Below are positions 15,847 through 64,000 of a stretch of DNA of 64,000 bases, one piece after another. Both the position numbers and the translations under genes were made by a program. The notes under the pieces were generated by a model, which worked only from the letters and a program-made list of their open reading frames with translations, searched no databases and was not told the origin of the DNA. Within the stretch, counting starts at the first letter, position 1. The number at the start of each line of letters is the position of its first letter. The stretch spans positions 1 through 64,000 of the forward strand of contig BPGB01000009.1 of assembly GCA_026002815.1 (NCBI GenBank), in the 5' to 3' direction. This stretch comes from Candidatus Woesearchaeota archaeon. GTDB taxonomy: Archaea; Nanobdellota; Nanobdellia; Woesearchaeales; UBA9642.

Positions 15847-16527
15847 ATGATTTCATTAGCCATTGCCGAGCCACATTATTTAATTGTAGAGGGTTTAAAG
15901 TCAATTACATCAGCCGTAAATTTTATTCATTTATGCGGTATTGCAAGTGATAAACCTGAATTAGATAATATAATCAGAACACATAAACCAAAAGTGTTAA
16001 TTATGGATTATGCCTGCGATTCATTTTCAATTGAAGATATAAAAATGGTTAATTATTTATCACCGGATACTAAAATTCTGGCACTTACTCATCATGTTTC
16101 TCAAAGTACCATAAATTTGGCTTTAAAATCCGGTGTATGTAGCCATGTTTTAAAAGATTGTGGCAAAGATGAAATTATTGAAGCAATAGAGGCAACATCA
16201 AAAAAGCAAAGTTTTTATTGTTCTAAAGTTTTAGATACCTTAACAGCTAAAGAAGGAGAGGTTAAAAAAGATTCTACTCAATTTTCTCGAGCAGTATGTG
16301 ATGGATTAAACATATCAGAAAGAGAAATTGAAATTATTAGAATGATAGCCGAAGGTTATTCAAACAAAGAAATTGCTGATAAGTTATTTTTAAGTACGCA
16401 TACCGTAAATACACACCGCAAAAACATAATGAGCAAATTGGGTGTTAATAATACTGCAGGTATTGTATTGTTTGCAGTTAAAGAAAATATAATTAGCCCT
16501 AATAAGTTTTTATTTTCTGCCAGTTAA
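15847..16527 (+). CDS. NarL/FixJ-type response regulator with atypical acidic pocket
   Basis: A 226-residue protein. The receiver domain (1-120) has the phospho-acceptor Asp in VLIMDYA (about residue 57), Thr in LALTHH and Lys in HVLKD, but the usual N-terminal DD pair is replaced (AEPHYLIVEGL), which should weaken Mg binding. The LuxR HTH (about 155-215) is intact: LNISEREIEIIRMIAEGYSN, LFLSTHTVNTHRKNIMSKLG. No histidine kinase is adjacent. It lies 85 bases upstream of the ABC/HlyD/TolC genes in the same direction and may control them. Confidence 0.88.
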   Translation: MISLAIAEPHYLIVEGLKSITSAVNFIHLCGIASDKPELDNIIRTHKPKVLIMDYACDSFSIEDIKMVNYLSPDTKILALTHHVSQSTINLALKSGVCSHVLKDCGKDEIIEAIEATSKKQSFYCSKVLDTLTAKEGEVKKDSTQFSRAVCDGLNISEREIEIIRMIAEGYSNKEIADKLFLSTHTVNTHRKNIMSKLGVNNTAGIVLFAVKENIISPNKFLFSAS

Positions 16528-16612: not shown

Positions 16613-18340
16613 GTGGAAGTTCCTGTATTATCTCCCTTAAAAAGGTTATTTAGATTAATTAAAGCTGAAAAAAAAGATGTTTATTATTTATATGGATATG
16701 CAATAATAGCCGGATTTATTAATTTATCGCTTCCATTAGGTATTCAGGCTATTATTGGGCTTGTAACAGCCGGGCAATCTTCAACTTCATTAGTGGTATT
16801 AATTTCGTTTGTATTAATTGGTATTTTGATTGCGGGTGTTTTACAGCTAATGCAGTTTTCATTAGTTGAATATTTGCAACAGCGTATCTTTACAAATGCA
16901 GCACTTGAATTTGCATACAGAATACCAAGAGTTAAAATGGAAGCGGTATTACGCATACACACTCCCGAATTAATGAATCGATTTTTTGATACGCTTACTA
17001 TTCAAAAAGGTTTATCGAAAATATTAATGGAAATTTCAACCGCATCCTTACAAATTTTATTTGGTTTATTACTTCTTTCGTTTTATCACCCATTCTTTAT
17101 TTTCCTTGGAATGTTTTTTATCCTGGTGCTAGCATTTATAATTCGAATTACGGCACCTGTAGGATTACAAACTAGTTTAAAAGAATCAAAACACAAGTAT
17201 CGCGTTGTTCATATTTTAGAAGAAATTGCCCGTACATTACAAACATTAAAATTAATAGGCAAAACAGACCTTCCTGAAAAAAATGTTGATAGAGAAGTTA
17301 GTCAATATCTAAATGCAAGAACCAAACACTTTAAAATACTTCTTATACAAATGGGAAGTTTTATTGGCTTTAAATTTTTAGTTACCGGTGCTTTATTAAT
17401 ATTAGGGTCTGTTTTATTAATCGATAGACAAATTAATATTGGTCAATTTGTTGCAGCAGAAATAATAATAATTATTATACTAAATGCAGTTGAAAAACTA
17501 ATTAACAGTTTAGATATAATTTACGATGTACTTACGGCTTTAGAAAAAGTGGGGGGAGTAACAGATTTACCCTTAGAAATAAATAAAGGAATAAACATTA
17601 ATAAAGAAAATAATCTTGGACCTTTTGAAATTAAAATTGACCATTTAAACTACCGCTTTCCGGATAATAATGAACAAGTATTGTATAATATAAATTATAA
17701 ATTCGAATCAGGTAAAAAATATTGTTTAAGCGGTTTTAACGGCTCCGGTAAAAATACATTTATTAATGTTATTACAGGTTTATATGAAAATTACACCGGA
17801 AGTATTCGATATAATGGATTTTCATTACGCGACTTGGATATGGAAGAACTTAGATTATCTATTGGTGATAATTTAATTTACGAAGATATTTTTGAAGGCA
17901 CCATATTTGAAAATGTGGCCGTAAATAGACCCGGTATTTCAAGAAAAGATGTATATGATTGTTTAACTCTTGTTGGACTAAACGATTTTGTTGCTCAGCA
18001 AAAAGAGGGTATCAATTCCTTGCTAATTGCAGGAGCAAAAGGTCTTCCGGGAAGTATTGCTCAAAAATTAATAATGGCTCGCTGTATTGCACGTAAACCC
18101 AGATTATTGATAATAAACGAAGGAAGCATTAAACTTATACCAACAGAAAAGGCGCAATTAATACGTGAGTTATTTAAGTTAGAAGCTACAATAATTTTTG
18201 TTTCAAATGAAAAAGAAATTATGCAATTATGTGATGAAACTATTTTATTGAAAAATGGTGAAATAATTATTTCAGGCAAATACGATAACATTCAATCCAA
18301 TGAATTCTTAAAACAAATTATAGAATATAAAAATGCTTAA
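16613..18340 (+). CDS. ABC exporter-like protein with degenerate ATPase motifs
   Basis: A 575-residue protein starting with GTG. The N-terminal ~320 residues are a type I exporter membrane domain with about six hydrophobic segments and no C39 peptidase domain. The C-terminal ABC domain has lost its catalytic residues: Walker A reads GSGKNT (N381 in place of Ser/Thr), the Q-loop Gln is Ile in NLIYED, the signature is LPGSI (478-482), Walker B is LLIINEG (N502 for Asp), and the H-loop His is missing (FVSNEKE). The frame is intact over its full length. It overlaps the HlyD gene by 8 bases. Confidence 0.85.
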   Translation: MEVPVLSPLKRLFRLIKAEKKDVYYLYGYAIIAGFINLSLPLGIQAIIGLVTAGQSSTSLVVLISFVLIGILIAGVLQLMQFSLVEYLQQRIFTNAALEFAYRIPRVKMEAVLRIHTPELMNRFFDTLTIQKGLSKILMEISTASLQILFGLLLLSFYHPFFIFLGMFFILVLAFIIRITAPVGLQTSLKESKHKYRVVHILEEIARTLQTLKLIGKTDLPEKNVDREVSQYLNARTKHFKILLIQMGSFIGFKFLVTGALLILGSVLLIDRQINIGQFVAAEIIIIIILNAVEKLINSLDIIYDVLTALEKVGGVTDLPLEINKGININKENNLGPFEIKIDHLNYRFPDNNEQVLYNINYKFESGKKYCLSGFNGSGKNTFINVITGLYENYTGSIRYNGFSLRDLDMEELRLSIGDNLIYEDIFEGTIFENVAVNRPGISRKDVYDCLTLVGLNDFVAQQKEGINSLLIAGAKGLPGSIAQKLIMARCIARKPRLLIINEGSIKLIPTEKAQLIRELFKLEATIIFVSNEKEIMQLCDETILLKNGEIIISGKYDNIQSNEFLKQIIEYKNA

Positions 18341-19718
18341 TATATCGGATAATAAAATACCTGATAATGTAATTAAAAATGTAGGCTACATTTCGATAGA
18401 AAAGGCGAAATCACCTACTGTTTTAACTAAGTTTTCAAGGGTTTTATATACCATAATGGTAATAATATTTTTAATGCTCTTTTTACCATGGACACAAAAT
18501 ATTCGTTCAAATGGTGTTGTAACATCGTTTTTGCCCGAAGATAGACCACAAACAGTTAATACCATTATTCCCGGTAAAATTGAAAAATGGTATGTTCAAG
18601 AAGGTCAATATGTAAATAAAGGTGATACAATTATTCATTTATCAGAAGTTAAAGATAGTTATTTCGACCCCCAACTCTTAAATCGTTCGCAAGAGCAAGT
18701 GGCAGCTAAAGAACAATCCTTAAAATCTACACGTAATAAAGCAGATGCATTATTAAAACAAATAAATGCATTAGAGCAAGCAAATGTTTTAAGTATCGAA
18801 AAAGCAAAAAATAAATTACGTCAAGCAGAATTAAAAGTTCAAAGTGATAGTATGGATATGTTGGCAGCTAAAGTTGATCAATCTATTGCTAAAGAACAAT
18901 TAGAACGTCAACAAGCATTATTTGAAAAAGGATTAAAATCTTTAACCGAATTAGAACAAAGAAAAATCAAATATCAAGATGCTACTGCAAAAGCTATTTC
19001 AGCAGAAAATAAATTTTTAGCTTCCAAAAATGAGTTGCTAAATGCACGAATTGAGCTTAACTCAATACAAGCAGATTATACCGATAAAATTGCCAAAGCC
19101 CAATCTGATTATAATTCAACACTGGCTTATGCATTTGACACCGAAGGAGCTATTGCAAAAATGAAAAACGATTTAGCCAATTATACCATTAGAAGTGGCA
19201 ACTATTATATATTGGCTCCAAAATCAGGATATGTAATAAAAGCACTCAAAGCAGGTATTGGAGAAATAATTAAAGAAGGAGAAGCGGTTGTAACTATTGT
19301 TGATAAAAATTCGGTTAATGCGGTAGAACTCTATGTTAAAACAATGGATGTTCCATTATTGCATAAAGGAGCTAAAGTACGTTTGCAATTCGATGGTTGG
19401 CCGGCTTTAGTATTTTCAGGATGGCCCGGTAGTTCTTTCGGTACATTTGGAGGCATAATTCAGGTAGTGGATTATGTAAGTACAAATGGTGGCAAATATC
19501 GAATATTAGTAACTCCCGACCCGGATGATATTCCTTGGCCTGAACAATTAAGAATTGGCGGTGGAGTTTACGGATGGGCTTTATTAAATGATGTGCCAAT
19601 TTGGTACGAAATATGGCGACAGCTCAATGGTTTCCCTCCTGACTGGTTAGGTGAAAATGAAGCTGATACCAAAGTTGAAAAATCTATAAAAGAAGTTGAT
19701 AAAAAAGCTGAATTCTAA
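18333..19718 (+). CDS. HlyD-type membrane fusion (periplasmic adaptor) protein
   Basis: A 461-residue protein with one membrane helix (about 32-52, YTIMVIIFLMLFLPW). A lipoyl half-domain follows (GKIEKWYVQEGQYVNKGDTI), then a long coiled-coil hairpin (about 115-275, rich in Ala, Gln, Lys and Glu), the second lipoyl half (YILAPKSGYVIKALKAGIGE) and a beta-barrel region. The C-terminus ends in a charged tail after PPDWLGENEADT. It would bridge the ABC protein in the inner membrane and the TolC-like protein. Its stop overlaps the next start (TAATG). Confidence 0.88.
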   Translation: MLNISDNKIPDNVIKNVGYISIEKAKSPTVLTKFSRVLYTIMVIIFLMLFLPWTQNIRSNGVVTSFLPEDRPQTVNTIIPGKIEKWYVQEGQYVNKGDTIIHLSEVKDSYFDPQLLNRSQEQVAAKEQSLKSTRNKADALLKQINALEQANVLSIEKAKNKLRQAELKVQSDSMDMLAAKVDQSIAKEQLERQQALFEKGLKSLTELEQRKIKYQDATAKAISAENKFLASKNELLNARIELNSIQADYTDKIAKAQSDYNSTLAYAFDTEGAIAKMKNDLANYTIRSGNYYILAPKSGYVIKALKAGIGEIIKEGEAVVTIVDKNSVNAVELYVKTMDVPLLHKGAKVRLQFDGWPALVFSGWPGSSFGTFGGIIQVVDYVSTNGGKYRILVTPDPDDIPWPEQLRIGGGVYGWALLNDVPIWYEIWRQLNGFPPDWLGENEADTKVEKSIKEVDKKAEF

Positions 19719-21136
19719 TGCGTTTAAAAGATTTTATACTTATCATTTCAGCAGCATTTTTTACAAAAGGTTTTTCCCAGTCTGATTCCACATTAAGCCT
19801 GATAAATTTATATAAAATCGTACTTGCTAATCATCCTGTAGCAGCCCAGGCCGGAATTACGGGAGATATGGGTAAAGCATTGCTTTTATCAGCTAGAGGA
19901 AATTTCGATCCCGTAATGCAAGCTGAATATCGCGATAAAGCATTTGACGGTAAAAATTATTATAAGGCACTTTTGAGTGAATTTAAAATCCCAACTCGAT
20001 TAGGAATTGACTTTAAAGCTGCTTATGAATTAAATGATGGGGCACGATTAAATCCCGAAAATTATACACCTAATCAGGGTTTGGTAATGGCTGGAGTGAG
20101 TATTCCTATTGGACAGGGTTTTTGGACAGATAAGCGGAGAAATGCTTTACGCCAGGCAAAAGCAATTGCTGAAATGAATAATGCAGAACAAATTCAAGTG
20201 CTTAACGATTTATTGTTGGAAGTAGCAACTGATTACTATGAATGGTATTTCAGATATTATGCATTTGAACGAGTTGATGAAGGATATAACTTAGCATTAG
20301 AACGATTAAATTTTGTAAAGGAGCGAATCAATTTTGGGGATTTAGCAGCTATTGATTCTGTTGAAGCATCTATAGAAGTTCAACAGCGTTTTATTCATCG
20401 CATACAAGCAGGAATTAATTTGGTAAATGCAACACTAAATCTTTCTAATCATATTTGGGGCGAAAATAATCAACCGGCATTTTTATCTCCTGATATAAAA
20501 CCACAACCACTAAATACAGATAGCATTTTTATTTCCATCCCTAATCCTGAAAACCTTGTGCAGACTGCATTAACTAATCATCCTAAATTAGTATTTTATC
20601 GTGCAAAAATTAAACAAATGGATGCTGATAGAAGATACAAAGCAGATTTGCTAAAACCTAATTTGCGCATAGATTATAATTTTCTTCAAGAGACGATGGT
20701 AGTCAATGATTTTAATACCATTAATCCTGATTACAGGGCTAATTACAAAGTGGGCCTAGTATTTAAATATCCATTGCTATTAAGAAAAGAAAGAGGAGAT
20801 TTAAAATTGGCTAAATTGAAATTATCGGATGCAGAATTTGAATTAACACAACAAACCAGAGAGTTGGAAAATAAAATACGAGCTTCCAGCAATGAATTTA
20901 GCAACATGCCCGAATTGCTGAATGTACAAAAAGAACTGGTTGATAATTATTTTATACTTCGTAATGGAGAACAAGAGCGTTTTAAAAATGGAGAAAGTTC
21001 TTTATTGATAATTAACATTAGGGAACGTAGTTTAATTGAATCGCAAATTAAATATATTGAGCAAAGTGTTAAAGCGGCTCTTGCAAGAGAAAAACTACTT
21101 TGGAGTGCAGGTTTGTTAAGCTCACTTCAAAAATAA
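19718..21136 (+). CDS. TolC-like outer-membrane efflux/secretion factor
   Basis: A 472-residue protein with a signal peptide (about residues 1-20, FTKGFSQ) and two long helical halves typical of the outer-membrane efflux family (LYKIVLANHPVAAQAG near the start; LVQTALTNHPKLVFYRAKIKQMDADRR near residue 290). It is the third gene of a translationally coupled set with the degenerate ABC protein and the HlyD adaptor, and would form the outer-membrane exit duct. Confidence 0.88.
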   Translation: MRLKDFILIISAAFFTKGFSQSDSTLSLINLYKIVLANHPVAAQAGITGDMGKALLLSARGNFDPVMQAEYRDKAFDGKNYYKALLSEFKIPTRLGIDFKAAYELNDGARLNPENYTPNQGLVMAGVSIPIGQGFWTDKRRNALRQAKAIAEMNNAEQIQVLNDLLLEVATDYYEWYFRYYAFERVDEGYNLALERLNFVKERINFGDLAAIDSVEASIEVQQRFIHRIQAGINLVNATLNLSNHIWGENNQPAFLSPDIKPQPLNTDSIFISIPNPENLVQTALTNHPKLVFYRAKIKQMDADRRYKADLLKPNLRIDYNFLQETMVVNDFNTINPDYRANYKVGLVFKYPLLLRKERGDLKLAKLKLSDAEFELTQQTRELENKIRASSNEFSNMPELLNVQKELVDNYFILRNGEQERFKNGESSLLIINIRERSLIESQIKYIEQSVKAALAREKLLWSAGLLSSLQK

Positions 21137-39971: not shown

Positions 39972-42984
<3,013 letters not shown>

Positions 42985-42992
<8 letters not shown>

Positions 42993-44434
42993 AAAAATTC
43001 TTTCGCATTCGGTATTATACGCTATTGGTCCACAAATTCCTCGATTAGCCGGCATTTTTATTTTACCACTATTAACTCAATATTTAACTCCTAAAGATTA
43101 CGGAATACACGGAGTTTTATTAGCTTATACAGGGATACTTTCTGGTATAAAAGATTTAGGTTTTTTGGTTTTATTGGTAAATTATTTTTTTCAGCGAAAA
43201 TTATATTGGCCTTTACTTTGGCGCAAACTATATGGATATTTAATTTTATGGATGCCTTTTTATGCTATTATTCAATCTTTTTTCATTTACTGGGCTTTAC
43301 CAATAAGTGAAATGCATAATTTTTGGGTTATATATATAATCTCTTTTATAAACTTAATGCTTTTTGATATCCCGATTTTAATGGCAGGTCGTTATTTGCA
43401 ACTTAGTCAAAAGCCACTTCATATTGCCATTGTTAGTGCTATTACCGGAATTTTAGGTTTATTTTTAAATTATTACACCATTGTGATATTGCGCATGGGT
43501 TATATGGGATGGATTTGGGCAACCTTTATTTCAAGTTTTTTTATGTTTATTTGTTATTTTCACTTAATCTTTATTAAGCTTAAGATATTTCCAATAATAA
43601 AATTAAATTTTAAAGCATTTTTTAAACGATTTAAAAATTAGTAGCCCTACAATTCCTCATAATTATTCTTCCTATTTATTAAATACATCTGACAGATTTT
43701 TACTTAGTAGATATCATATATCAATTGATGATATTGGAAAGTACAATTTAGCATATACGTTTGGAAATTATTTTGATTTTATTGGAACTGCTATTGGAAT
43801 GGCTGTAGGGCCAGTTTACTACAAAATTTTTGATTTAAATATGGATGTTAAAAATTTATTGGCTAAAATATTTACATTTATTTTGCAAATATCCTTTATA
43901 ATCATTGGTTTTTTAGCTGCACTATGGATAAAAGAAATAATGAATATATTAATAAGTAATCCGGAACTTAAAGTATCGTATGTTTTTGCATGTATCATTA
44001 TAATGTCGTTTGTTTATCGCCCTTTCTATTGGTCAAGTATTAACTTATTGATATTTTATAAAAAAACCACACTTCTTTGGAAAATAACTTTAATAGGCAG
44101 TTTAATTAATATCATTTTAAATTTAATATTTTATCCCAATTTTAGGAATTTGGTCGGCTGTATTAGCCTACATTTGTATCAATGATGTTTATAGGATTTG
44201 CCGGTGGATTTTATAAAGAAGTTAAAGAATTAAACAGAAAAAATTACAGCGAGCTTTTGTGGTTAATGGCAATTATTTTAATAACAATTTTTGTTTTGGC
44301 ATCAATAAATACTGTGTGGGTATTTAAAAATATTAATTTCCATTTTTATTACAGTAACTGGAGGATATTTAATTTTAAATTACTATAAAAAATTTAGAAG
44401 AATAATTAACGAACATAAAATTTATGTCATTTAG
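42985..44434 (+). pseudogene. wzx: Wzx-type oligosaccharide flippase (four +1 shifts)
   Basis: Begins FKKILSHSVLYAIGPQIPRLAGI, typical of polysaccharide flippases. Frames join at A5 43633-43637, near 44144, near 44181 and near 44338; each join removes one base. The joined protein (~480 residues) has about 12 hydrophobic segments with SSYLLNTSDRFLLSRY and FITVTGGYLILNYYKKFRR near the end. The repaired 3' end overlaps the next gene by 11 bases, which supports the repair. It would flip lipid-linked repeat units across the inner membrane. Confidence 0.78.
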
Positions 44435-45600
44435 TTTTACATATAATCTTGAAAAATTAAGAAATAATAAGGAAGCAAACTGCGGAAGAGAATATCAGCA
44501 ATGTGCAATAAGTGTTATGGATACCATTGCTGATCCTAATATTCACTTTGATGAAAAAGGGATTTGTAATTATTACCATGAATATAAAAAAGTAGCAGAA
44601 AATTATGAAGGGAAGAATATAAGTAGAGAAAATAAGCTAAATGAAATTATAAATAAAATCAAAATTAATAAAGGAAACAAAAAGTATGACTGTATTTTAG
44701 GATTAAGCGGAGGTGCTGATAGTACATATTTAGTTTATAAGGCTAAATTATTAGGATTAAATCCTTTATTAGTTCATTTTGATTATGGATGGAACTCGGA
44801 AATTGCTATAAAAAATGTAGAGAGTGCCGTTAAAAAATCAGGTTTTGATTTATATACAGTTGTAATGGATTGGGAAGAATTTAAAAGTTTACAACGTTCT
44901 TATTTTAAAGCATCTGTTTTAGATTTGGATGTACCAGCAGATCATATGATTTTTGGCGCTTTATACAAAGTAGCTATTAAATTTAATATTAAATTTATTT
45001 TGAGTGGAAACAATATATGGACAGAACATACGCTTCCTCCCATCATGGAACTATAATAAATTTGATTTAATTAACCTTAAAAATATACATAAAAAATTTG
45101 AAAACACTTCATTAAGACACTTACCTAAATTGGGTTTTATTGAGTCTATAATTTATCAAAAATATTATAAGATAGAACAAATTCAGTTGTTAAACTACGA
45201 ATATTATGAAAAAAAGAAAGTAATTGAAATAATAAAAAAAGAATTAGATTGGATTGATTATGGAGGGAAACATAATGAATCTGTATTTACTAGATTTTAT
45301 CAGGGCTTTATTTTGCCTGTAAAATTTAATATTGATAAACGAAAGGCTCACCTTTCAAATTTAATTTATTCAGGGCAATTAACTAAAGAAGAAGCATTAA
45401 ATGAGCTTAATACCCCCCCCTATCCTTTAGAATTAATGAAGGCAGACTTTGAATATGTATCAAAAAAGTTAGATTTTACAATTCATGAATTTGAACTGAT
45501 TTTAAATCAACCAAATATATCTCATGATTTTTATGGTACTGATAAGAAGCTAAGAAATATATGGCTTAAAATTTTAAAATCAACCAAGCCATTTAGATAA
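44424..45600 (+). pseudogene. WbpG-type N-acetyl sugar amidotransferase (one +1 shift)
   Basis: N-terminal zinc-binding region, then the PP-loop ATPase motif DCILGLSGGADSTYLVYKA (about residues 91-109), LVHFDYGWNSEIA and ILSGNNIWTEHTLPPSW. One extra C in CCC at 45039-45041 breaks the frame; removing it restores PPSWNYNKFD. In the N-terminal ribbon two of the four expected cysteines are changed (CAIS and CNYY where I expect CxxC and CNxC). Partners HisH/HisF are encoded at 25.0-26.4 kb. It contains a C8 run at 45413-45420. Confidence 0.83.
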
Positions 45601-45610
45601 TAGTGAACGA

Positions 45611-46963
45611 TTGAAAGTAATAATGATTTGTGTTGAATTTGCACCGGTAAATACAACAGGTAATTACCGGTCTACAAAATTTGTTAAATATTTAAAAGAG
45701 TTTGACATTACTCCAATTGTTATTACATTTCCAGTCGCTGAACTTTTAAAATCATTTCCTCATGCAAAAGAAGATATTTCTTTAATTAACGAGCTTCCAA
45801 TTGATACTATTATATACAGAATTAAACCAAAAGATATCAGTAAATACTATGGTAATAAATTAAAAAATTTTATTACTATTTTCTTTGATTATAAGGATAA
45901 ACTCGCTAAAGTTTGGAGACAAGAATTAAAAAAACAGATTCCAAATATTATTAATGAACATAATCCTGAATTAATTTATGTGTCTTTACCACCTTTTAGC
46001 ATTGGTAAATTAGCATCAGAAATAGCTTCAGATTTTAACTTGCCATTAGTTGTTGATATGAGAGACCATTGGGCATTGTGGGGAGTAAGTCCTTTTGCTT
46101 CATTTTTTCATTTTAAATTAACGAAAAACGAAGAGAAAAATATTTTCAATAAAGCAAGTAAAATAATTTGTGCTACGGAGGTTTTAAAGGAGGATTTTAT
46201 TTCATTACACAATGAAATTGACCAGAATAAATTTGTAACTATTACAAATGGGTTTGATTATGATCTGGATTTAAAAAAATATAACATTGACTTTCAACAA
46301 AAAAATAAAATAAAAATTTGTTTTAGCGGCTCTTTCTACTATAACCCTGAAAACAGAGATAATATATTTAAAAAATGGTATCAAAAAAGAATTAATAGAT
46401 GGTATCAATATGTTTATAGAAAAGAAGATTGGCGATATAATTCGCCATACTATTTTTTTAAAATTTTAAATGAAATTAAAAGTATCAATTTTGAATTATT
46501 TAATAAGATTGAAGTTCATTTTATAGGGAATAAACCTTTTTGGTTGCAGGATATGATAAATGAATTTGAATTAAATGAAAAATGTATTCATCATGGTTTT
46601 GTAATGAAGAGTGAAATTAATAAACTTTATTATGAAATGGACATGTTTTTTGTAACTACTGTTAAAGTTTATGGAGGCAAAGACTATATGATAGGATCTA
46701 AAGTTTTTGATTTTATTAAGTTTTCTAAACCTGTTTTAGGAATTGTTTGTGAGGGAGCAATGAAAAATTTTATTGAAAATAGCAAAATAGGTATTACAAT
46801 AAATCCTGATGATAATAATGCTTCAAAGATACTAAGTGATTTATTAACAAGGATAATTGAAGTAAACCCCAATTATGATTATTTAAGAAACTTTCATAGA
46901 AGAGTATTAGCTTCTAAATTGGCGAATATATTTTATGATATATTAAAAAATAACTTTTATTGA
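45611..46963 (+). CDS. Glycosyltransferase family 4-like protein
   Basis: A 450-residue GT-B protein with a TTG start. The N-lobe has VEFAPVNTTGNYRSTKFVKY (an open acceptor loop) and VVDMRDHWALWG; the C-lobe has KICFSGSFYYNP, VEVHFIGNKPFW-like folding (KIEVHFIGNKPFWLQD) and IGSKVFDFIKFSKPVLG. It is intact in a region where many neighbours are broken. The sugar transferred is unknown. Confidence 0.8.
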   Translation: MKVIMICVEFAPVNTTGNYRSTKFVKYLKEFDITPIVITFPVAELLKSFPHAKEDISLINELPIDTIIYRIKPKDISKYYGNKLKNFITIFFDYKDKLAKVWRQELKKQIPNIINEHNPELIYVSLPPFSIGKLASEIASDFNLPLVVDMRDHWALWGVSPFASFFHFKLTKNEEKNIFNKASKIICATEVLKEDFISLHNEIDQNKFVTITNGFDYDLDLKKYNIDFQQKNKIKICFSGSFYYNPENRDNIFKKWYQKRINRWYQYVYRKEDWRYNSPYYFFKILNEIKSINFELFNKIEVHFIGNKPFWLQDMINEFELNEKCIHHGFVMKSEINKLYYEMDMFFVTTVKVYGGKDYMIGSKVFDFIKFSKPVLGIVCEGAMKNFIENSKIGITINPDDNNASKILSDLLTRIIEVNPNYDYLRNFHRRVLASKLANIFYDILKNNFY

Positions 46964-47831
46964 TTTAAATTTATTTAAATCAATAAAAGTTCATAATTAA
47001 TTTAACCTTTTTTAATTATAATTTAAATTGAAATTGATATTAATATAGTATGGGATTTTGATAATACACATCAATATAAATCGTATAAGGTATTTAATAG
47101 TAACACCCGGTTGATGCATTAAATTTTAAATTTAAAACATTAAATAATAAAAAACCTCATATTGTTTTTTCTGTATCTCCATTAATTCTAAAAAATCAAA
47201 ATTTTAATTGTCCAAAATATTTTATAAATCATGGTTTATCTAATAACTTTATTCAACAAGCAAAAAAATAATCTTTTACAATATAAAAATATTGATAAAG
47301 TAAAAAGTGTGGGATATAGCGGAAATCTTAACTCCAATTTATTTGATTTAAATCCCGTTGAAGAAGTTATAATTAAATATCCGGATTTAAAATTTTATTT
47401 TATAGGACCATTTAATAATCAAAGTGATGTTTATAATAAATTAAAGCAATACCCAAATTGTTATTTTATAGGTAAATTAGATGAATTACCCCTAATTAAA
47501 AAGTTAAATGAGATGGACCTATTAATATACAATTATAAACCTGATAATAAAATTTATTATGCAGATAATTCTCATAAAATATTAGAATACTTATCAACCG
47601 GAAAAATTATATTAGGAAGTAATTTGCTGGCTTACCAAAATAGTGATTTAGTTATACAAGACTAATAATAATAAAGAGTGGGAATATTATTTTGATGAAA
47701 TAATATTAAACCACACATAAATTTACGGATGAATTTCAATTTAAAAAAAGAATTGAGTTTGCAATAGCAAATTCATATCAAAATCAATTAGAAAAAATAA
47801 GCAGATATATTTATCAAAATAAGTTATTATA
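46964..47831 (+). pseudogene. Glycosyltransferase-like gene with about five frame changes
   Basis: No ATG-led frame is open throughout, but joined frames give WDFDNTHQYKSY, KPHIVFSVSPLIL, KYFINHGLSNNFIQQAKK, VKSVGYSGNLNSNLFDLNP, LKFYFIGPFNN, CYFIGKLDELPLIKKLNEMD and ADNSHKILEYLSTGKIIL, the C-lobe pattern of GT-B transferases, then FAIANSYQNQLEKISRYIY. The start is probably near the TTG at 47027; 46964-47026 holds nothing else. Extra bases explain the joins at A7 near 47267, at 47664 and at 47715; the two at the 5' end look like missing bases. Confidence 0.65.
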
Positions 47832-47835
47832 AATT

Positions 47836-48873
47836 TTGCTATTTATTACACTAAATACATATTGCAACAAAGGAGGAATAGAAACCTTTAATCAATACTT
47901 TATAAACGGATTAAAGGATAATCAATTCCACTATAAATCTGTTTCTTTATATGATAAAAAAGTAAACGATTCAAATTCGCAAATTGCTTGTTCAGGAAGT
48001 ATTATAAAGTTAATTTGGTTTATCTTTTTAAACCTTAGAAATAGTAACACAATTATCTGGGGGCATATTAACTTAATTCCTTTGCTTTTTCTATTTTATC
48101 CTTTTTTCAGAAAGAAGAGAAATATTTTAATAGTTCATGGAATTGATGTTTGGAACCCTTTATTTAAAAATAAACTAAAAATATTAGGAGTTAGAATTAC
48201 AAACGAAGTATGGAGTGTTAGTAACTACACCAAAAAACGTTTTATAGAAAATTATCACTATCCTTTTGAAAAAGTTCATATTTTTTCAAACACTATAAAA
48301 CCCAAGCAAAGCAATAACGATAGTCCTTATACAAATTCAAGTATTAAAATATTAAGCATTTTACGATTACAAAATAGAGAAAAAATACTTTCGGTGTTAA
48401 GAATAATTGAGGTTTTACCTCAACTTTTAAAAAAACAGGATATACAATATTTTATTATAGGAGAAGGAAACTATAAAAACAATTTAATACAGCATATCAA
48501 GCAAATAGGATTAAGTAAACAAGTTCATGTATTAGGATATATAGATAATACTGCACCATACTTAGAACATTGCGATATTTTTACATTACTTAGCGAAACA
48601 GAAGGTTTTGGTATAGTTTTACTCGAAGCTATGCAATTTGCAAAACCATGTATTGCAGCTACCAATACAGGTTCTGAAGATGTTATTCGAAATGGTGAAT
48701 CCGGTTTTTTGATAAATCCTGACGATACTTTTGAATTATATCAAAAGCTTTTATTGCTAATTGAAAATAAAGATTTAAGAATTAAAATGGGACAAAAAGG
48801 AAAAGAAATTTTTGAAAGTACGTTTACTTATCAACACTTTTGTGAAAAACAAAAGCAATTATTATTATTTTAG
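47836..48873 (+). CDS. Glycosyltransferase family 4
   Basis: A 345-residue GT-B protein with a TTG start. NTYCNKGGIETFNQYF is the nucleotide-sugar/acceptor loop, IVHGIDVWNPLF and VWSVSNYTKKRF belong to the N-lobe, and SILRLQNREK, YFIIGEGNYKNNL, HVLGYIDNTAPYLEHCD and EGFGIVLLEAMQFAKP (the E-x7-E motif) to the C-lobe. It is intact. Confidence 0.87.
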   Translation: MLFITLNTYCNKGGIETFNQYFINGLKDNQFHYKSVSLYDKKVNDSNSQIACSGSIIKLIWFIFLNLRNSNTIIWGHINLIPLLFLFYPFFRKKRNILIVHGIDVWNPLFKNKLKILGVRITNEVWSVSNYTKKRFIENYHYPFEKVHIFSNTIKPKQSNNDSPYTNSSIKILSILRLQNREKILSVLRIIEVLPQLLKKQDIQYFIIGEGNYKNNLIQHIKQIGLSKQVHVLGYIDNTAPYLEHCDIFTLLSETEGFGIVLLEAMQFAKPCIAATNTGSEDVIRNGESGFLINPDDTFELYQKLLLLIENKDLRIKMGQKGKEIFESTFTYQHFCEKQKQLLLF

Positions 48874-55870: not shown

Positions 55871-56825
55871 TGAGTTTTTTAGTAACAGGAGGAATTGGTT
55901 ATCTTGGAGCAAGAATTGTAAAAGCCACTTGCCGAAACCTATCGCTGATCGTAAAATTATTTATACGCATCATCATCATATAAATAAGAACTATTTTAAT
56001 CAATTTAAAAATGTACAATTCCGAAAACTTAATTTAACAGAATATACTGATTTTAATACCATTTGCAGTGGTATAAAAACAATAGTTCATCTTGCATTTC
56101 CAAACGAAATTATATGTAAACAAAATGTTGAAGCCTCTATAGATGCAGGCATACGCGGCACTTATTATTTGCTTTCCGAAGCTAAACGATATAACGTTAA
56201 AAATTTTATTTTTCTATCAACCGCACACGTTTATGGAGCTCCACTTGAAGGCGAAATTACAGAATTAAGTCTTCCCAAACCTATACATCCTTATGCAATT
56301 ACAAAAAGAGCAGCCGAAGATTTTGTATTAGCATTAAGAAATGAAACTAATATAAATGCTATAGTTTTAAGGTTATCAAATGGTTTTGGATATCCGGTAC
56401 ATAAAGATATAAATCGCTGGACTTTGCTGGTTAATGATTTATGTAAACAGGCTGTATTGAAAAAACAAATGGTATTAAACAGTTCCGGTTTACAACATCG
56501 CGATTTTATTCCTTTTGAAGATGTTATTTCAGCAATTGTATTATTAGATACTTTAAAAAAAGAAGACACTTTAGATGGCTTATTTAATTTAGGTTCCGGA
56601 AAGTCGCTACCTGTTTATGAATTTGCATTAAAAATTGCAGAAATTGCCGAAAAATATTTAGACAGTAAAATTTCGATAATACGAAAAACTCCTCTTGATG
56701 GAGAGCATTACGAACCTTTGAATTATAATATAAATAAAATTTCTTCAATTGGTTATATACCCAAAGGAAATATTAATTTTGAAATTGAAGAAACCTTACG
56801 CTTTTGTAAGGAACATTTAATCTGA
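55870..56825 (+). pseudogene. NAD-dependent epimerase/reductase (extended SDR; two +1 shifts at the 5' end)
   Basis: Starts SFLVTGGIGYLGARIVK, the Rossmann glycine loop; extra bases near 55924 and 55946 break the first 30 codons, and the rest (55929-56825) is open. Repaired, it reads PLAETYRDRKIIY. Catalytic YAITKRAAEDF (Tyr-x3-Lys), VHLAFPNE, VLRLSNGFGYP and HRDFIPFEDV follow. As the fourth step after RfbF, RfbG and the cupin, it would reduce the keto sugar. About 317 residues. Confidence 0.82.
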
Positions 56826-56826
56826 A

Positions 56827-58005
56827 ATGTCTCATAAAATTTTAGTTGTTTCACACACCGCTTTCCGAAGAGTTGGAAGGACAGTTTATATTGAACTTTT
56901 AAATAAAGGATACGATATAACTATTATTCATCCCCAAACACTTGAAGCTGCAGATGGAAGCATAATGCAGCATGAAAAAAAATCAAATGACGAACCTCTA
57001 TTAATAGCCTTACATCAAACTATTAGAAATCCAAGAATTCATACATACAAAGGTTTGATTAAAAAGGTAAATGAAATTAATCCACAAATAATAATTCTTG
57101 AAAATGACCCTATCTCATATTTGGCTTTGCAATTGGGTTTTTTGGGCAAAAATAAATAAGGCAAAATTTTTTTTGTTTAACCAACGATAATGTTTCGCGA
57201 ACATTGATTCAACTCATATAAACGACAAGGTATAAAAGGAGTGCTTTATAGTATGCTACTACAAATGGTCAATTTTATTACCCGACCTATGGTGCATCAT
57301 TTATTTGTTATCAGCAATGCAGGATTACAGGAATTTATAGAATTGGGCTACAAAACAAAAGTTTCCAAAATTCCATTAGGTTTTGATAGCAAATTATTTT
57401 TTAAAGACGAACTAAAACGCAATGAAAAAAGAAAAGAGCTGGGCTTATCGCATGAAACCGTGATTGCCTATTTTGGAAGAATGAAATTTCAAAAAGGTAT
57501 TCATATATTAATTGAAGCATTAGCCATGCTTAAAGGACCGTTCGTGGAAATTTATGCTGGATTATTTTGAAGAAGGAGGCGATAATTATCAAAACTATTT
57601 GCGAGAACTGATAAAAAAATATGATTTAGATAATCGTTTGTTTTTTGTGCATGCCAACCATTTAGAAGTAGCCGATTACATGCGAGTAGCCGATATTATA
57701 GTTGTACCATCGCTAGAAACACCTAATTTTTGTGGAACAATATGGCAGAGTAGTGCCTGAAGCTATGGCTTGCGGTGCACTAACAATAGTAAGCAATACA
57801 GGAGCTTTGCCGGAATTACTTAACAAAAATGGTTGGGTATTTAAGCAAGGAGATATTCATGAATTATATAAAACCCTTATTAAAATTATGGATCTAAATA
57901 AATTGGAAAAGGAAAAAAATGAGAGAAAATGCATCAAAATATGCACATGAAAACCTAAATATTCAAGCACAGGCAGCTTGTATGGCACTTTATTTAAATA
58001 ATTAA
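56827..58005 (+). pseudogene. Glycosyltransferase family 4 (six +1 shifts)
   Basis: Joined frames give KILVVSHTAFRRVGRTVYIE, LILENDPISYLALQ-like text, INKAKFFCLTNDNVSRTLIQ, KGVLYSMLLQMVNFITRP, FGRMKFQKGIHILIEALAML, VEIMLDYFEEGG, VPSLETPNFVEQYGRVVPEA, ACGALTIVSNTGALPEL and MRENASKYAHENLNIQAQ. Extra bases lie at A5 57148-57152, T8 57167-57174, near 57220, T3 57551-57553, T5 57727-57731 and A7 57913-57919. Repaired length about 390 residues. Confidence 0.78.
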
Positions 58006-58009
58006 TTTC

Positions 58010-59035
58010 ATGAATTTAAAACATGCCAAAATACTTTTAGTAGGAGATTATCCAACACCGGTTTATACCGGATTATTGGGCTCTTATAAAAGAGCATTTG
58101 ATTATTTTAATGTTAATAATCAAGTGTTTTATTTTAATTTAAATAATAAATTTATTAGAATATTTAAATATTCAGATATTTTATTACAATTATATTCAAA
58201 AAATTATCAAAACGAATTAATTGAATTTATTTTAAAAATCAAACTCTACGCATATTATTGTTTTTAAAGGGAGTTTATATATTGCCCCGATACAATTAAT
58301 TTTATTAAAAGCAAAGGCATTATAGTGTGCAATATTAATCCTGATAACCCATTTAATACAAATAGAATTTCATCAAACTGTTTGATAAAAAAATCTATTC
58401 CTAATTATGATTATTATTTTATTTGGAGTAATGAATTAAAATATAAACTTTCTGAAACATACCCTAATACAAAATTTATTTATTTGCCTTTTGCAGTTGA
58501 CGATTTTATAATCCCTGTATTTAATAATAATTTTAACTATTGTTATAACTTAAGTTTTATAGGGAATAGCGATAAAGAGAGATTTTTTAAATTAAATTTA
58601 TTATTAAATAGTCATCAATTAATAAGAGAAAATTTAATGGTATTTGGTAATGGTTGGGATTCGCTAAATTTTAAAAGTATAAAAGGGCAAGTTAATGGGA
58701 ATGATTATTTTATTACATTCAATAAAACGAAAATAAATATAAATATACTTAGAGATCAAAATAGAGATGCGCATAATATGCGAACTTTTGAAATACCAGC
58801 ATCATGTGCATTTATGTTACATGAATACAGTAAGGATGCAATTGATTTATTTAAACCAGGTGAAGAAGCAGAATATTATCAATCAGTAGAAGAGTTTTTA
58901 GACAAGTTTAAGTTTTATTTAAATAATGATTCAATTAGAGAAAAAATAGCATTATCAGCCTATAATAAATCCAGAACTTTTGAGTATTCTTATAAACAAA
59001 GAGCTCAATTAATTTTAAATGAAATTACTAAATAA
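58010..59035 (+). pseudogene. CgeB/DUF3880-like glycosyltransferase (one +1 and one -1, or equivalent)
   Basis: Starts with LKHAKILLVGDYPTPVYTGL. The frame is the same on both sides of a short garbled stretch (about 58245-58285) containing TAA; a +1 and a -1 there would restore THIIVFKGSLYIAPDTINF. The C-terminal half is typical of CgeB-like transferases: LSFIGNSDKERFFKLN, FNKTKININILRDQN, HNMRTFEIPASCAFMLHE and a final EYSYKQRAQLILNEI. About 340 residues. Confidence 0.72.
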
Positions 59036-59038
59036 TTA

Positions 59039-60190
59039 ATGAAAGTTTCGATAGTAGTTCCCGGTAGATTTCATGCCTTTAATTTAGCGTATGAGTTGCA
59101 AAAACATAAGGTTTTGCATTGCATGGTTACTTCTTACCCTTATTTTGAAGTTAAAAAATATGGGATTAAAAAAGAATTTGTAAAATCTATTATTTCTAAA
59201 GAAATAATTCAGCGTATTTATTTAAAACTTTTTAAAACCTATCCGCCTTTTGCATTCATAAATCGCTGGTTTGGTTATTGGGCAGCTTATAAATTACCGA
59301 TGGATAGCGATATTTATGTTCTATGGTCGGGCGTATCATTATGGAGTATAAAACGAATAAGAAAAAATAATCCGAATGCAAAAATTATTATTGAAAGAGG
59401 TTCATCGCATATCGAAAAGCAAGACGAACTACTTAAAATGATTTATGGAAAGCAAATCATATCGAAACATGTTTTAAATATCGAATTAAAAGAATATGCT
59501 TTGGCTGACTATATATCTGTTCCAAGCATTTTTGCTAAAAACTCCTTTCTTGAAAAAGGATTTAAAGAAGAAAAAATACTATTAAATAATTACGGGGTTG
59601 ACTTAAGTGATTTTTATGAAATTAATGATACAAAATCAAAAAATGAAAATGATAAACTTATAGTTGGTTATGCCGGAACCATTAGTGCTAGAAAGAATGT
59701 AAATGGTATAATTGATAGTGTAAAAGAATTAGTAGATGAAGGTTACAAGATACAATTAAATATAGTGGGAACAATTGATCTAAGTACTTTTGATACAAAA
59801 TTATTAAACCATTCATTTATAAACTATCAAAATAAAATTCCTCAAAAAGAATTGGTGATTTTTTATAATAATATTGATGTATTTATTCAAAACTCAATAG
59901 AAGAAGGCTTATCAATGGTAATTTTACAAGCCATGGCATGTGGTAAACCGATTATAGCAACCGAAAATAGCGGAGCAGCAGATTTTATTGATGATGGTAA
60001 AGAAGGATTTATTATTCCTATTTTGAATAATAGTATTTTAAAAGAAAAAATTAAGTATTTTTATGAAAATAAAGATGCAATTGTAAAATTTGGAGAACGA
60101 GCTGCAATAAAAGTAACCAACGGATTTACTTGGGAAGAATATGGAAAAAGAGCAATTGCATTATATAATTCAATAATTAAAAATGAATAA
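59039..60190 (+). CDS. Glycosyltransferase family 4
   Basis: A 383-residue intact GT-B protein: KVSIVVPGRFHAFNLAYELQ at the start, IIIERGSSHIEKQ, VPSIFAKNSFLEKGF, VGYAGTISARKNVNGII, INYQNKIPQKELVIFYNNID, and EEGLSMVILQAMACGKPI (the E-x7-E type motif). It overlaps the next gene by 8 bases. Donor and acceptor unknown. Confidence 0.88.
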   Translation: MKVSIVVPGRFHAFNLAYELQKHKVLHCMVTSYPYFEVKKYGIKKEFVKSIISKEIIQRIYLKLFKTYPPFAFINRWFGYWAAYKLPMDSDIYVLWSGVSLWSIKRIRKNNPNAKIIIERGSSHIEKQDELLKMIYGKQIISKHVLNIELKEYALADYISVPSIFAKNSFLEKGFKEEKILLNNYGVDLSDFYEINDTKSKNENDKLIVGYAGTISARKNVNGIIDSVKELVDEGYKIQLNIVGTIDLSTFDTKLLNHSFINYQNKIPQKELVIFYNNIDVFIQNSIEEGLSMVILQAMACGKPIIATENSGAADFIDDGKEGFIIPILNNSILKEKIKYFYENKDAIVKFGERAAIKVTNGFTWEEYGKRAIALYNSIIKNE

Positions 60191-61058
60191 TAAAATAAAT
60201 TATTTAACCCGAACCATTCTTCACTATTTTGATAAAGCAATTTGCCCTTCTTGTCAATCAAAAGATTGCAAGGTAATAGATAGAAAATATTTAGTTTCAA
60301 GATTGTTTGAATGTAATAATTGTCACTTGTATTTTCGCCATCCTGTTGATTCTATTGAAACAAATAAAGAATTTTATCAAGAAGACTATCAACAAAAGGG
60401 AGAAGGTATTACAACCGATATTCCTGATAGAATTACTTTAGAGAAACTTAAAGAAAATAATTTTGCAGGAACTTCAAAAAATATTCAACATTATGTTAGT
60501 TTATTTAAACAATTAATTCCGAATAAAACCATTAAGATAATTGATTTTGGAGCAAATTGGGGGTATCAAAGTTTTCAATTTAAAAATGCAGGATTTGAAG
60601 TAAGCAGCTACGAAATTTCTGTACCAAGAGCTGCCATGGGTAAAAAACTATTAAATGTTGAAATTCATACAAGAGTGGAAGAGTTGTCTGCCAATAATGA
60701 TATATTTTTTAGTTCACATGTAATAGAACATTTACCCGATATTCCATACATGATTAATCTTGCCAAAGATAAATTAAATGAAAATGGAATATTTATAGCT
60801 GAATGTCCTAATGGTTCTAAGGAATTTAGGGCGAAAAATCCAAAGGCATTTAATTTATGCTGGGGCTTATTACATCCCAATTACATTAGTGCAGATTATT
60901 ATCAATATATGTTTAAAAATAATCCATATTATATCACTTCAACACCTATAAATGTTGAAGATATTTTAAATTGGGATAGAAAAACGCAGGTTTGTAAAAA
61001 TCTATCAGGCGACCAACTGGTGGTATTTGCATTTATCAATCAAAATAATACCCCATGA
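60183..61058 (+). CDS. Class I SAM methyltransferase with N-terminal zinc ribbon
   Basis: A 291-residue protein. The N-terminus carries two knuckles, CPSCQSKDC and CNNCHLYF, about 20 residues apart. The methyltransferase domain follows with IKIIDFGANWGYQSFQF (motif I), FFSSHVIEHLPDIPYMI and LNENGIFIAECPNG. Such fusions are common in O-antigen clusters and methylate sugars or C-methylate branched sugars. It overlaps both neighbours by 4-8 bases. Confidence 0.82.
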   Translation: MNNKINYLTRTILHYFDKAICPSCQSKDCKVIDRKYLVSRLFECNNCHLYFRHPVDSIETNKEFYQEDYQQKGEGITTDIPDRITLEKLKENNFAGTSKNIQHYVSLFKQLIPNKTIKIIDFGANWGYQSFQFKNAGFEVSSYEISVPRAAMGKKLLNVEIHTRVEELSANNDIFFSSHVIEHLPDIPYMINLAKDKLNENGIFIAECPNGSKEFRAKNPKAFNLCWGLLHPNYISADYYQYMFKNNPYYITSTPINVEDILNWDRKTQVCKNLSGDQLVVFAFINQNNTP

Positions 61059-62182
61059 AATTTTATTACATAAGTATTTCTTCGCTTTCTTTTTTTCCGG
61101 TATTTAAATATATATTAAAAGTTTTCTTAAAAATTAAGAATGATAATAAAAATAATCATCATTTAGTAGAGTCTTATTTAAAAGGTTTTCCTGAATATAG
61201 TAGTCAAGTTTGTACACATTATTATTATAGGTTTAATAATATCAATCATTTTAATAATATGTCATTTCAAACTAAGATAAGACGCTACTTATATGTTTTA
61301 TTTTATATCATTAAAGCTATTTTATCAAAAAAAACTGTTATTTATACTTCCGATTATCAGGTTTTATTTATAGTTTTTAAATTATTTAAATTATTAGGGA
61401 AATCTAATGTTAAATTAATTTATCATCAGTTCGAATTAATAGAATTAGAACATAAAAGAAATATTCTACAAATAATTTCATCAAATAAGCATTATATTGA
61501 TTTAGCAGTATTTCCGGAAATAAATCGCTTAAATTATTTTGTTGACAATACGGGTTTTCCAATTAAAAGAACTTTATTATTCCCAAATACTTGTGAAGTT
61601 AATAATGTTGTAACATCAAAAAATAAAATTTTAAAAGAATTTAATGATGATGATATTGTTATTGCTCATGTCGGCAATGTTGGCTTTAATCATTTTTTAC
61701 TTGAAATAATTTCATGCTTCAAAAAGTTAAATGTTCCTGATAATTATAAATTAGTATTTATTGGTAAACAATCAAAAGACTTAGAGATTTTTTTGCAAAA
61801 TAATGCATTCACTAATATTTATTTTTATAATGAAATTCCTCATAATGAATTAAGTTCCATTTATAATTTTATTGATTATGGTTTAATTTTATATAAACCT
61901 ATTGACTTAAATTTTGATTTTTGTGCCCCTAATAAATTATATGAATATTGGGCGCATGGAGTACCAGTAATGGCACATTGTTTAAGAGGATTAGAAAATA
62001 TTATCACACATAACTTAGGAAGCATAATAGATTTTAATAAAATTCAATTAAATGATATTTTAAAAATCAATAAATTAACTGAAGAAAAAAGAAATATGAT
62101 AAAAGAAGAATTTCGTATTAAATTTGAGGTTACATATTATCAAAATCAATTAAATCAAAAGTTAAAAGATTTATTATCTTGA
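61055..62182 (+). CDS. Glycosyltransferase, GT-B fold
   Basis: A 375-residue intact protein. The N-lobe contains YHQFELIELEHKR, typical of transferases such as GT4 or WfgS-type. The C-lobe has IVIAHVGNVGFNHFLLEI, LVFIGKQSKDLEIFL, FYNEIPHNELSSIYNFIDYG and APNKLYEYWAHGVPVMAH. It overlaps methyltransferase and wecB genes by 4 bases each. Confidence 0.75.
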   Translation: MKFYYISISSLSFFPVFKYILKVFLKIKNDNKNNHHLVESYLKGFPEYSSQVCTHYYYRFNNINHFNNMSFQTKIRRYLYVLFYIIKAILSKKTVIYTSDYQVLFIVFKLFKLLGKSNVKLIYHQFELIELEHKRNILQIISSNKHYIDLAVFPEINRLNYFVDNTGFPIKRTLLFPNTCEVNNVVTSKNKILKEFNDDDIVIAHVGNVGFNHFLLEIISCFKKLNVPDNYKLVFIGKQSKDLEIFLQNNAFTNIYFYNEIPHNELSSIYNFIDYGLILYKPIDLNFDFCAPNKLYEYWAHGVPVMAHCLRGLENIITHNLGSIIDFNKIQLNDILKINKLTEEKRNMIKEEFRIKFEVTYYQNQLNQKLKDLLS

Positions 62183-63336
62183 AAAATAAATTTCTAATAG
62201 TTATAGGTACACGACCGGAACTAATTAAATTAGCACCGGTTATTATTGAATTTAAAAAAAGATTCAGCAATCCCCCAATTATAATTTTAAATACAGCTCA
62301 ACATAAAGAACTATTGAAACCCTATTGGGAAATTTTTCAGATAAAGCCCGATTATGAATTAAATTTTATGAAAAAAGGGCAAAGTTTATCTCAATTAACT
62401 GCCAGAGGTCTTACACAATTAGAAAAATTTATAAATACGATTCAATTAGAAAAAACTAATATTATAGGAATATTAGCTCAAGGAGATACTACAACTGTTA
62501 TGGTTAGTTCAATGATAGCTTTTTATAAAAATATTCCATTTTTTCATCTAGAAGCCGGATTAAGAACATTTGACTTACATAATCCCTTCCCTGAAGAGTT
62601 TAATAGAAAAGTTGCGTCAATATCAGCTCAAATTCATTTTGCACCAACTAAAATCTCGAAAAATAATTTAAAAAATGAAGGGATAGATAAAAACATTATT
62701 GTTTCCGGTAATACCATAGTTGATGCAGTAAATCTTTTTAAATCAAAATTTAAAAATTATCAAATAAAAAATAAACAACTTTATGAATTATCGTTTGCTA
62801 ATCATAATCATAATGTTTTAATTACATGCCATCGAAGAGAAAACCATGGCAAAAATTTATTAAATATCATTTCTGCTGTATGTAAATTAGCAAATGAATT
62901 TAAACAATATAACTTTATTTGGCCTTTGCATCCTAATCCAAATGTAGGTGCTGTAATTAAAAATCAAATAAATCCTACAAGATTTCAAAATATATATTTA
63001 ACAGAACCACTTGATTATTTAGATTTATTATTTGTTTTAAGCAAATCCAATTTAGTTTTAACGGATTCCGGTGGAATACAAGAAGAAGCTCCTTCATTCA
63101 ATGTTCCGGTATTGGTATTAAGAAAAAAAACTGAAAGACCCGAAGGTATAGAATCTGGTGTTGCATGGTTGGTTGGTACTAATAAATCAACTATTTATAA
63201 TAAGGCTAGCGAATTATTAAAAAATAAAAAATTTAATTTTAAAAATCCTTATGGAAATGGTAGAGCAGCTAAAATTGTGGTTGACAATTTACTCAATACA
63301 ATTGAAGAATTAAATGAAGGATATCTTTCTCCATAA
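62179..63336 (+). CDS. wecB: UDP-N-acetylglucosamine 2-epimerase (non-hydrolysing)
   Basis: A 385-residue protein with a TTG start: IVIGTRPELIKLAPVI, AQGDTTTVMVSSMIA, FHLEAGLRTFDLHNPFPEE, CHRRENHGKNL, WPLHPNPNVG, LVLTDSGGIQEEAPSF and LRKKTERPEGIESGVAWLVG, all conserved in WecB. It interconverts UDP-GlcNAc and UDP-ManNAc. UDP-ManNAc could be polymer precursor or, through a hydrolysing activity, a source of ManNAc for the NeuB-type synthase; the first is more likely by family. Confidence 0.92.
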   Translation: MKNKFLIVIGTRPELIKLAPVIIEFKKRFSNPPIIILNTAQHKELLKPYWEIFQIKPDYELNFMKKGQSLSQLTARGLTQLEKFINTIQLEKTNIIGILAQGDTTTVMVSSMIAFYKNIPFFHLEAGLRTFDLHNPFPEEFNRKVASISAQIHFAPTKISKNNLKNEGIDKNIIVSGNTIVDAVNLFKSKFKNYQIKNKQLYELSFANHNHNVLITCHRRENHGKNLLNIISAVCKLANEFKQYNFIWPLHPNPNVGAVIKNQINPTRFQNIYLTEPLDYLDLLFVLSKSNLVLTDSGGIQEEAPSFNVPVLVLRKKTERPEGIESGVAWLVGTNKSTIYNKASELLKNKKFNFKNPYGNGRAAKIVVDNLLNTIEELNEGYLSP

Positions 63337-64000
63337 AATTTATTGTCCCTATACTATTTTTATGGCTTATATCTATTTTATTGTTTAATCATCAATTAAT
63401 TTTTGAAGAAGTTGCGTGGATATATTTTATTTTCCTATTTATTATTACGATTACTTTACAACAACGGTTTTGATATTACTATTAAGGAAATTCTTTTGAT
63501 ATTACTTATTAACCTTACAATACTTTGTTGCTCCTTCTGTTGTATATAATAAATTTAATAATGACGTAGGCGATTTTGGGTATGAAATGAAAATAGAAAA
63601 AGAAGACTACTTCTCGTTTTTAATTAACACTATTATTGCGTTTTTTTATAGGTCTATATATTCCAATATTTAAAACCCAAATAAATACACAACAAATATT
63701 CAATAAAATAAAATTGTTAAAAGATAATTTTAAAATCGGAATTAATTTAATTATTATTAGTTTTTTGTCCTTTTTTTTATTGCCTTTTTTACCATCTACT
63801 TTAGCATTTTTAGGAGCATTCTTAGTTAATCTTAAATACGTAGGGATGTTTTATGTTTACTTTTCCAATCATCGTTTAAAAAATATTTTTGTACTATTAG
63901 TAATTAGCTATTTAATTTTAAATATTATATCAGGCGGGGTTTTTATTGATTTATTTGTTTGGGGATTATTTATGGCAACGTATTTTACTATTAATAAACC
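63314..64000 (+). pseudogene. Wzy-like O-antigen polymerase, cut by window edge (four +1 shifts)
   Basis: Starting at the ATG 63314, inside the end of wecB, joined frames give MKDIFLHKFIVPILFLWLIS, FEEVAWIYFIFLFIITITL, FDITIKEILLILLINL, QYFVAPSVVYNKFNNDVGDF, IGLYIPIFKTQINTQQI, FLLPFLPSTLAFLGAFLVNL and GGVFIDLFVWGLFMATYF. Extra bases lie near 63337, 63469, 63519 and in T7 63641-63647. A polytopic protein with these features near wzx and transferases is most likely the repeat-unit polymerase. The 3' end lies beyond the window. Confidence 0.65.

Follow-up and report, generated by a model that had tools for sequence, protein, structure and literature searches.

A widespread family of degenerate ABC exporters, encoded with HlyD and TolC, that probably runs on something other than ATP hydrolysis

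The gene at 16613-18340 of the 64-kb stretch of DNA analysed here (the window) encodes an ABC exporter subunit that is altered at all five of the sites that characterize a functional ABC ATPase. The initial annotation of this gene had proposed that homologues be aligned at these five motifs, and the alignment revealed the same degeneracy in more than 100 relatives. Judged by that comparison the gene is a member of a widespread family and not a single broken copy. No earlier description of the family was found in the open-access literature (subscription journals fell outside the scope), and as far as could be checked it has gone unremarked. ATP hydrolysis is probably not what powers the pumps of this family. 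By analogy, ion-coupled transport through a homodimeric membrane domain is their likeliest, though unproven, energy source, and descent from exporters resembling those of type I secretion is our best reading of their origin. To the full proposal, an inner-membrane subunit of a tripartite pseudo-ABC/HlyD/TolC exporter that has abandoned ATP hydrolysis and works as a homodimer with an ion-coupled transmembrane domain (TMD), we would give about an even chance of being correct.

The gene and its surroundings comprise the following features, where the motif assignments within the nucleotide-binding domain (NBD) derive from an alignment to relatives and canonical exporters.

15847-16527, plus strand: LuxR-type response regulator upstream of the ABC gene, possible regulator outside the core operon
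16613-18340, plus strand: degenerate ABC exporter (TMD and pseudo-NBD), 575 amino acids, GTG start (Pfam, alignment, AlphaFold2/Foldseek)
16613-17587, plus strand: TMD, residues 1-325, six helices, the strongly conserved portion (invariant columns; AlphaFold2 helices up to residue 317)
17459-17461, plus strand: Glu283 in TM6, a family-wide carboxylate (column counts across the family groups)
17624-18337, plus strand: pseudo-NBD, residues 338-575, ABC ATPase fold retained in the prediction
17732-17758, plus strand: Walker A, GFNGSGKNT, residues 374-382, with Asn381 at the Ser/Thr position
17876-17878, plus strand: Q-loop site, Ile422 and not Gln
18044-18058, plus strand: signature site, LPGSI at residues 478-482 and not LSGGQ
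18116-18118, plus strand: Walker B, Asn502 for Asp, with Glu503 next
18206-18208, plus strand: H-loop site, Asn532 and not His
18333-19718, plus strand: HlyD-family periplasmic adaptor, 461 amino acids (Pfam HlyD_3; NCBIfam type_I_hlyD below cut-off), adjoining nearly every family member
19718-21136, plus strand: TolC-family outer-membrane channel, 472 amino acids (Pfam OEP, 95 bits), the conserved third gene

The gene is full length with an intact frame, as had been described. Its stop codon (18338-18340) is overlapped by the HlyD gene, which starts with the ATG at 18333, and the stop of the latter is in turn overlapped by the TolC start (ATG at 19718), which bears out the proposed translational coupling. 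The adjacent HlyD and TolC genes that mark a type I secretion locus are thus present at 18333-21136. The lack of a second ABC gene alongside holds for the whole 64-kb window, in which no other ABC ATPase was found. A copy of the LuxR-type regulator, 89% identical, occupies the same position in a sister genome (L150); none was found beside the other family members.

Each of the altered sites listed above had been recognized in the initial annotation and reappeared in the alignment. Its Walker A motif was right and its numbering slightly off, as GSGKNT spans residues 377-382 and not 379-382. Likewise, its statement that every motif is altered applies to five of five sites (Walker A, Q-loop, LSGGQ, Walker B and H-loop) and needs the reservation that the protein retains the Walker A glycines and Lys380 as well as Glu503 of Walker B. 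The D-loop is lost as well. The protein nevertheless belongs to the ABC superfamily and has the type IV exporter fold: it scores 66 bits against ABC_membrane and 55 bits against ABC_tran, both in excess of the curated Pfam cut-offs, and its AlphaFold2 model matches solved exporters in Foldseek with TM-scores of 0.86-0.88, including 0.88 for HlyB in the HlyB/D complex (8dck). The best profile similarity is to the NHLM, LssB and HlyB models of NCBIfam, although none of the type I secretion cut-offs is reached (157 against 693 bits for TIGR03375, 128 against 726 for TIGR01846, 127 against 510 for TIGR01842 and 171 against 853 for TIGR03796). The protein thus shares with the type I secretion exporters HlyB, PrtD, LssB and PCAT/NHLM the type IV fold and an operon with an adaptor and an outer-membrane channel. 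It differs from them in that it lacks a peptidase-like domain, has altered ATPase motifs and has a TMD that is more conserved than its NBD.

The bin from which the window was taken is mixed, with archaeal SSU and LSU rRNA on one contig (C5) and a bacterial SSU rRNA on another (C19). The contig of the window (C9) shares synteny with the genome of an uncultured member of the Bacteroidia (G060, loci L033 and L150), and the relatives of the bin (0.6-2.1 Mb) do not carry the degenerate ABC gene. On this sequence evidence the contig is from the Bacteroidota and was misbinned with an archaeon. Within the window, positions 40001-48000 and 56001-64000 have a lower G+C content (25% and 26.5%) than the remainder (29-32%).

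A genome scan yielded 61 loci of 37-86% identity, nearly all labelled Bacteroidota, and all full-length members examined were degenerate at the same motif positions. A profile of the family (A1) found a member in 98 of 396 Bacteroidota genomes, with a bimodal score distribution that separates the family (380-841 bits) from canonical exporters (at most 169 bits). The family therefore occurs in about a quarter of the sampled Bacteroidota genomes, and the current annotation 'ABC transporter ATP-binding protein' (e.g. WP_004920602.1) is misleading for a common gene of this phylum. Among 110 core members, SGG and the H-loop His are absent throughout, the Q-loop Gln is found in 4, the Walker B Asp in 7 and GK[S/T] in 99. 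At the same alignment columns 12 of 13 canonical exporters have all motifs, against 0 of 110 in the family core. Some full-length members have lost Walker A altogether (L089, L093, L159, L173). An ABC site is composite and combines Walker A, Walker B and the H-loop from one subunit with the signature of the opposite subunit. With signature, Walker B Asp and H-loop His all lost, no complete ATP site can form in a homodimer or with a canonical partner, and from the known mechanism we infer that the subunit cannot hydrolyse ATP in either setting. The earlier expectation that the window protein does not hydrolyse ATP in the normal way is thus supported by the family-wide motif loss, which makes hydrolysis by this subunit very unlikely.

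The operon has been retained together with the degenerate form, a combination that the initial annotation had suggested looking for. In the first set of 61 loci a HlyD match was found at 59 (the copy of the window included) and a TolC match at 56, nearly always in the order HlyD, TolC and on the same strand as the ABC gene. Judged by gene order, the HlyD-TolC operon persists throughout the family. The loss of the ATPase, as far as sequences can tell, is graded. A sister group, of which 14 members were examined, keeps Walker A and the Walker B Asp in all 14 and the H-loop His in 8, has no Q-loop Gln, and contains near-signatures such as LSTGQ (L144, L145). Its status as a clade is unsure (support 56) and the rooting of the tree is weak, owing to this low support and to the long branches of the canonical sequences. 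Next comes the degenerate core, and nested within it (SH-aLRT 99, in a tree built from TMD columns alone) is one clade from six genomes (L132-L137) whose proteins of 334-360 amino acids end cleanly at the linker and have no NBD. The TMD-only form is predicted to fold as a complete helical domain (AlphaFold2, pLDDT 82). HlyD and TolC still come next at these loci, which indicates that ATP hydrolysis is not needed. A relocated NBD was not found in these genomes, where besides the TMD gene only generic ABC proteins of 20-33% identity turned up, with one short stretch of 42%. R207 and Q246, kept by the other members, are missing from the NBD-less ones, which would be expected of contacts that serve the NBD. 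We thus have a natural series, running from Walker A/B-bearing to NBD-less proteins, in which HlyD and TolC are the partner genes throughout.

Sequence conservation in normal ABC exporters is highest in the NBD. In this family the pattern is reversed: the mean pairwise identity is 55% for the TMD and 34% for the NBD, compared to 40% and 63% in a control set consisting of one orthologous canonical exporter fetched from genomes that carry the family. The TMD is the more similar domain in 5884 of 5886 family pairs and in 1 of 276 control pairs, counts that are descriptive because pairs share ancestry and are no independent trials. Moreover, 28 of the 30 columns that are invariant among 47 homologues fall in the TMD or the linker; these alignments place the strongest constraint on the TMD. 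The family-wide polar and charged residues of the TMD, which canonical exporters lack or do not hold constant, include N122, R123, D126, Q131 and K132 in the region of the first intracellular loop, H159, K195, Y196 and H239, and Q278, E283, E294 and K295 in TM6. Glu283 is present in 108 of 109 core, 14 of 14 sister-group, 6 of 6 TMD-only and 2 of 2 sphingomonad members, whereas canonical exporters mostly have Ile, Leu, Met or Ser in the equivalent column. Its predicted position is near the periplasmic end of TM6 and not clearly mid-membrane. The NBD is nonetheless far from neutral. Between the window and its 86% identical relative L033, dN/dS (NG86) is 0.069 for the TMD, 0.071 for the NBD, 0.078 for HlyD and 0.091 for TolC, ratios that are approximate as dS is near or above 1. 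The value for the NBD, being similar to those of the partner genes, points to purifying selection on the degenerate domain.

The conserved TMD with its HlyD and TolC partners, the lost ATPase and the precedent of LmrA and MsbA together lead us to favour ion-coupled export. In the mechanism that we propose, the TMDs of a homodimer likely dock on HlyD and pass the substrate into the HlyD-TolC conduit. Less certainly, and by analogy, an ion gradient through the TMD would drive transport in a secondary-active manner; charged residues shared by the whole family, Glu283 among them, would be the candidates for coupling. Where it is retained, the pseudo-NBD may be a dimer scaffold or a nucleotide-sensing regulator, dispensable in one lineage. 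An ion-driven inner-membrane pump combined with an adaptor and TolC, as proposed here, is known from the ATP-independent MFS system EmrAB-TolC and the RND system AcrAB-TolC, the inner-membrane proteins of which have folds unrelated to that of the ABC family members. Secondary transport by LmrA and MsbA has been reported mostly by one research group. The NBD-less LmrA-MD and MsbA-MD were reported to transport ethidium with protons, and Glu314 in TM6 of LmrA to be required (PMC6155054, PMC2704374, PMC4979069). The likeness concerns an ABC exporter TMD without NBD (PMC6155054, PMC4979069) and an important or conserved TM6 carboxylate, although the equivalence of Glu283 to Glu314 is putative. LmrA-MD and MsbA-MD, however, are laboratory truncations of active ATPases from other subfamilies, which counts against a direct transfer to this family, whereas L132-L137 lost the NBD in nature. 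Further points weigh against ion coupling, among them the position of Glu283 close to the periplasmic end of TM6. The Walker A Lys survives in most of the core, which together with the purifying selection on the NBD suggests that nucleotide binding may matter. In addition, the sister group, with its Walker A and B retained, has Glu283, Glu294 and Lys295 as well, so that these three did not arise with the loss of the ATPase; the idea that charged TM6 residues are an innovation of the degenerate clade was rejected for this reason. These residues could equally be involved in HlyD docking or in structure.

More generally, the ATPase is what defines an ABC transporter, and the case for transport by the TMD itself has so far been made only from artificial truncations. 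It is conceivable, and we propose it tentatively, that the family constitutes a naturally evolved class of the ABC fold in which an ATP-driven pump resembling those of type I secretion became an ion-motive, secondary-active tripartite pump, with surviving intermediates. The family makes it testable whether the TMD of an ABC exporter can be powered without ATP, what purpose a pseudo-NBD has and which steps of the cycle are lost first.

The main rival to ion-coupled export is a passive role, in which the dead ABC dimer assembles or gates HlyD-TolC for another transporter or for a periplasmic substrate. We regard this as unlikely but deserving of serious consideration. HlyD and TolC have been kept despite the loss of the ATPase and even of the NBD, and the regulators vary by lineage: the sole constant neighbour is a TetR-type regulator gene directly upstream of the operon in 29 of the 61 loci, mainly in Flavobacteriia (L048 5293-5976, L062 5301-5990 and 27 others like them; two of the 29 checked with Pfam). 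The neighbourhood comparison found no conserved substrate gene near the family members. These observations agree with a scaffold. The invariant residues, however, are spread over the whole TMD, with charged residues among them in TM6 and in the intracellular loops, and exceed what docking appears to require.

The protein may also be an ATP-binding switch or an unorthodox ATPase, so that the cycle is still driven or controlled by nucleotide binding alone or by slow hydrolysis through the altered residues. The high frequency of GK[S/T] in the core, the Walker A and Walker B Asp of the sister group and the strong purifying selection on the NBD fit this idea. On the other hand, the Ser/Thr that coordinates Mg is an Asn in the window protein, the four full-length members mentioned above have no Walker A and one clade has no NBD, and we consider such a switch improbable.

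Very improbable, in our view, is a heterodimer in which the subunit pairs with a canonical ABC half-transporter that is encoded elsewhere and hydrolyses ATP. Heterodimers do commonly contain a subunit whose NBD is folded but has degenerate catalytic residues (TM287/288, TmrAB, BmrCD, MsRv1273c/72c), and TM287/288 is among the best fold matches of the window protein. As the mixed bin cannot supply a list of the other ABC genes of the host, the sister genome G060 served in its place; it encodes four further canonical-looking exporters. Judged by sequence, a distant partner is still conceivable. In the known systems, however, the canonical subunit is encoded alongside, and the degenerate one still supplies a signature or Walker set to one surviving consensus site, whereas the counts for the core leave no usable half-site. 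No recurrent ABC gene adjoins the family members, so that none travels with the operon, and the TMD-only members keep the single-gene arrangement. Three individual neighbours were considered as partners and rejected: an ATPase of the oligopeptide-importer type (oligo_HPY) upstream of L052 only, UvrA beside L142 and L148 (and by similarity L143), which does not recur elsewhere, and a lone ATPase 1.3 kb downstream of L132, which is absent from the other five TMD-only loci. Of the three options in the initial annotation, that of a heterodimer half is thereby weakened, while a scaffold and another energy source remain, with the latter favoured.

Recent decay of the gene or a sequencing artefact, suggested by the mixed bin, has practically no chance of being right and was rejected, given the same degeneracy at more than 100 independent loci, the intact frames, the low dN/dS and the synteny with G060 (81-87% DNA identity across 10.8-24 kb); indeed, canonical close homologues and a high dN/dS had been named beforehand as signs of such decay, and the relatives proved equally degenerate at a dN/dS of about 0.07.

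Several members depart from the common architecture. An N-terminal extension of some 150-250 amino acids precedes the TMD in L139-L142, L146, L148, L149, L152-L154, L168, L169, L171 and L043-L046; the four checked (L139, L141, L149, L168) had no Pfam match in this part. One genome (G109) carries two members (L152, L153) with separate HlyD and TolC genes for each. In Saprospiraceae (L034, L036, L037, L054) a pyruvate-kinase-barrel gene lies between the ABC and HlyD genes, and some of these operons also contain a gene for an outer-membrane beta-barrel. Distant members are found on two sphingomonad plasmids (L204, L205), where Walker A is destroyed, many of the TMD hallmark residues are kept and adaptor and TolC genes are neighbours. 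On one of these, the Sphingobium plasmid pHAL16 (L205, 1362-5664), the member directly follows a DUF2309 gene.
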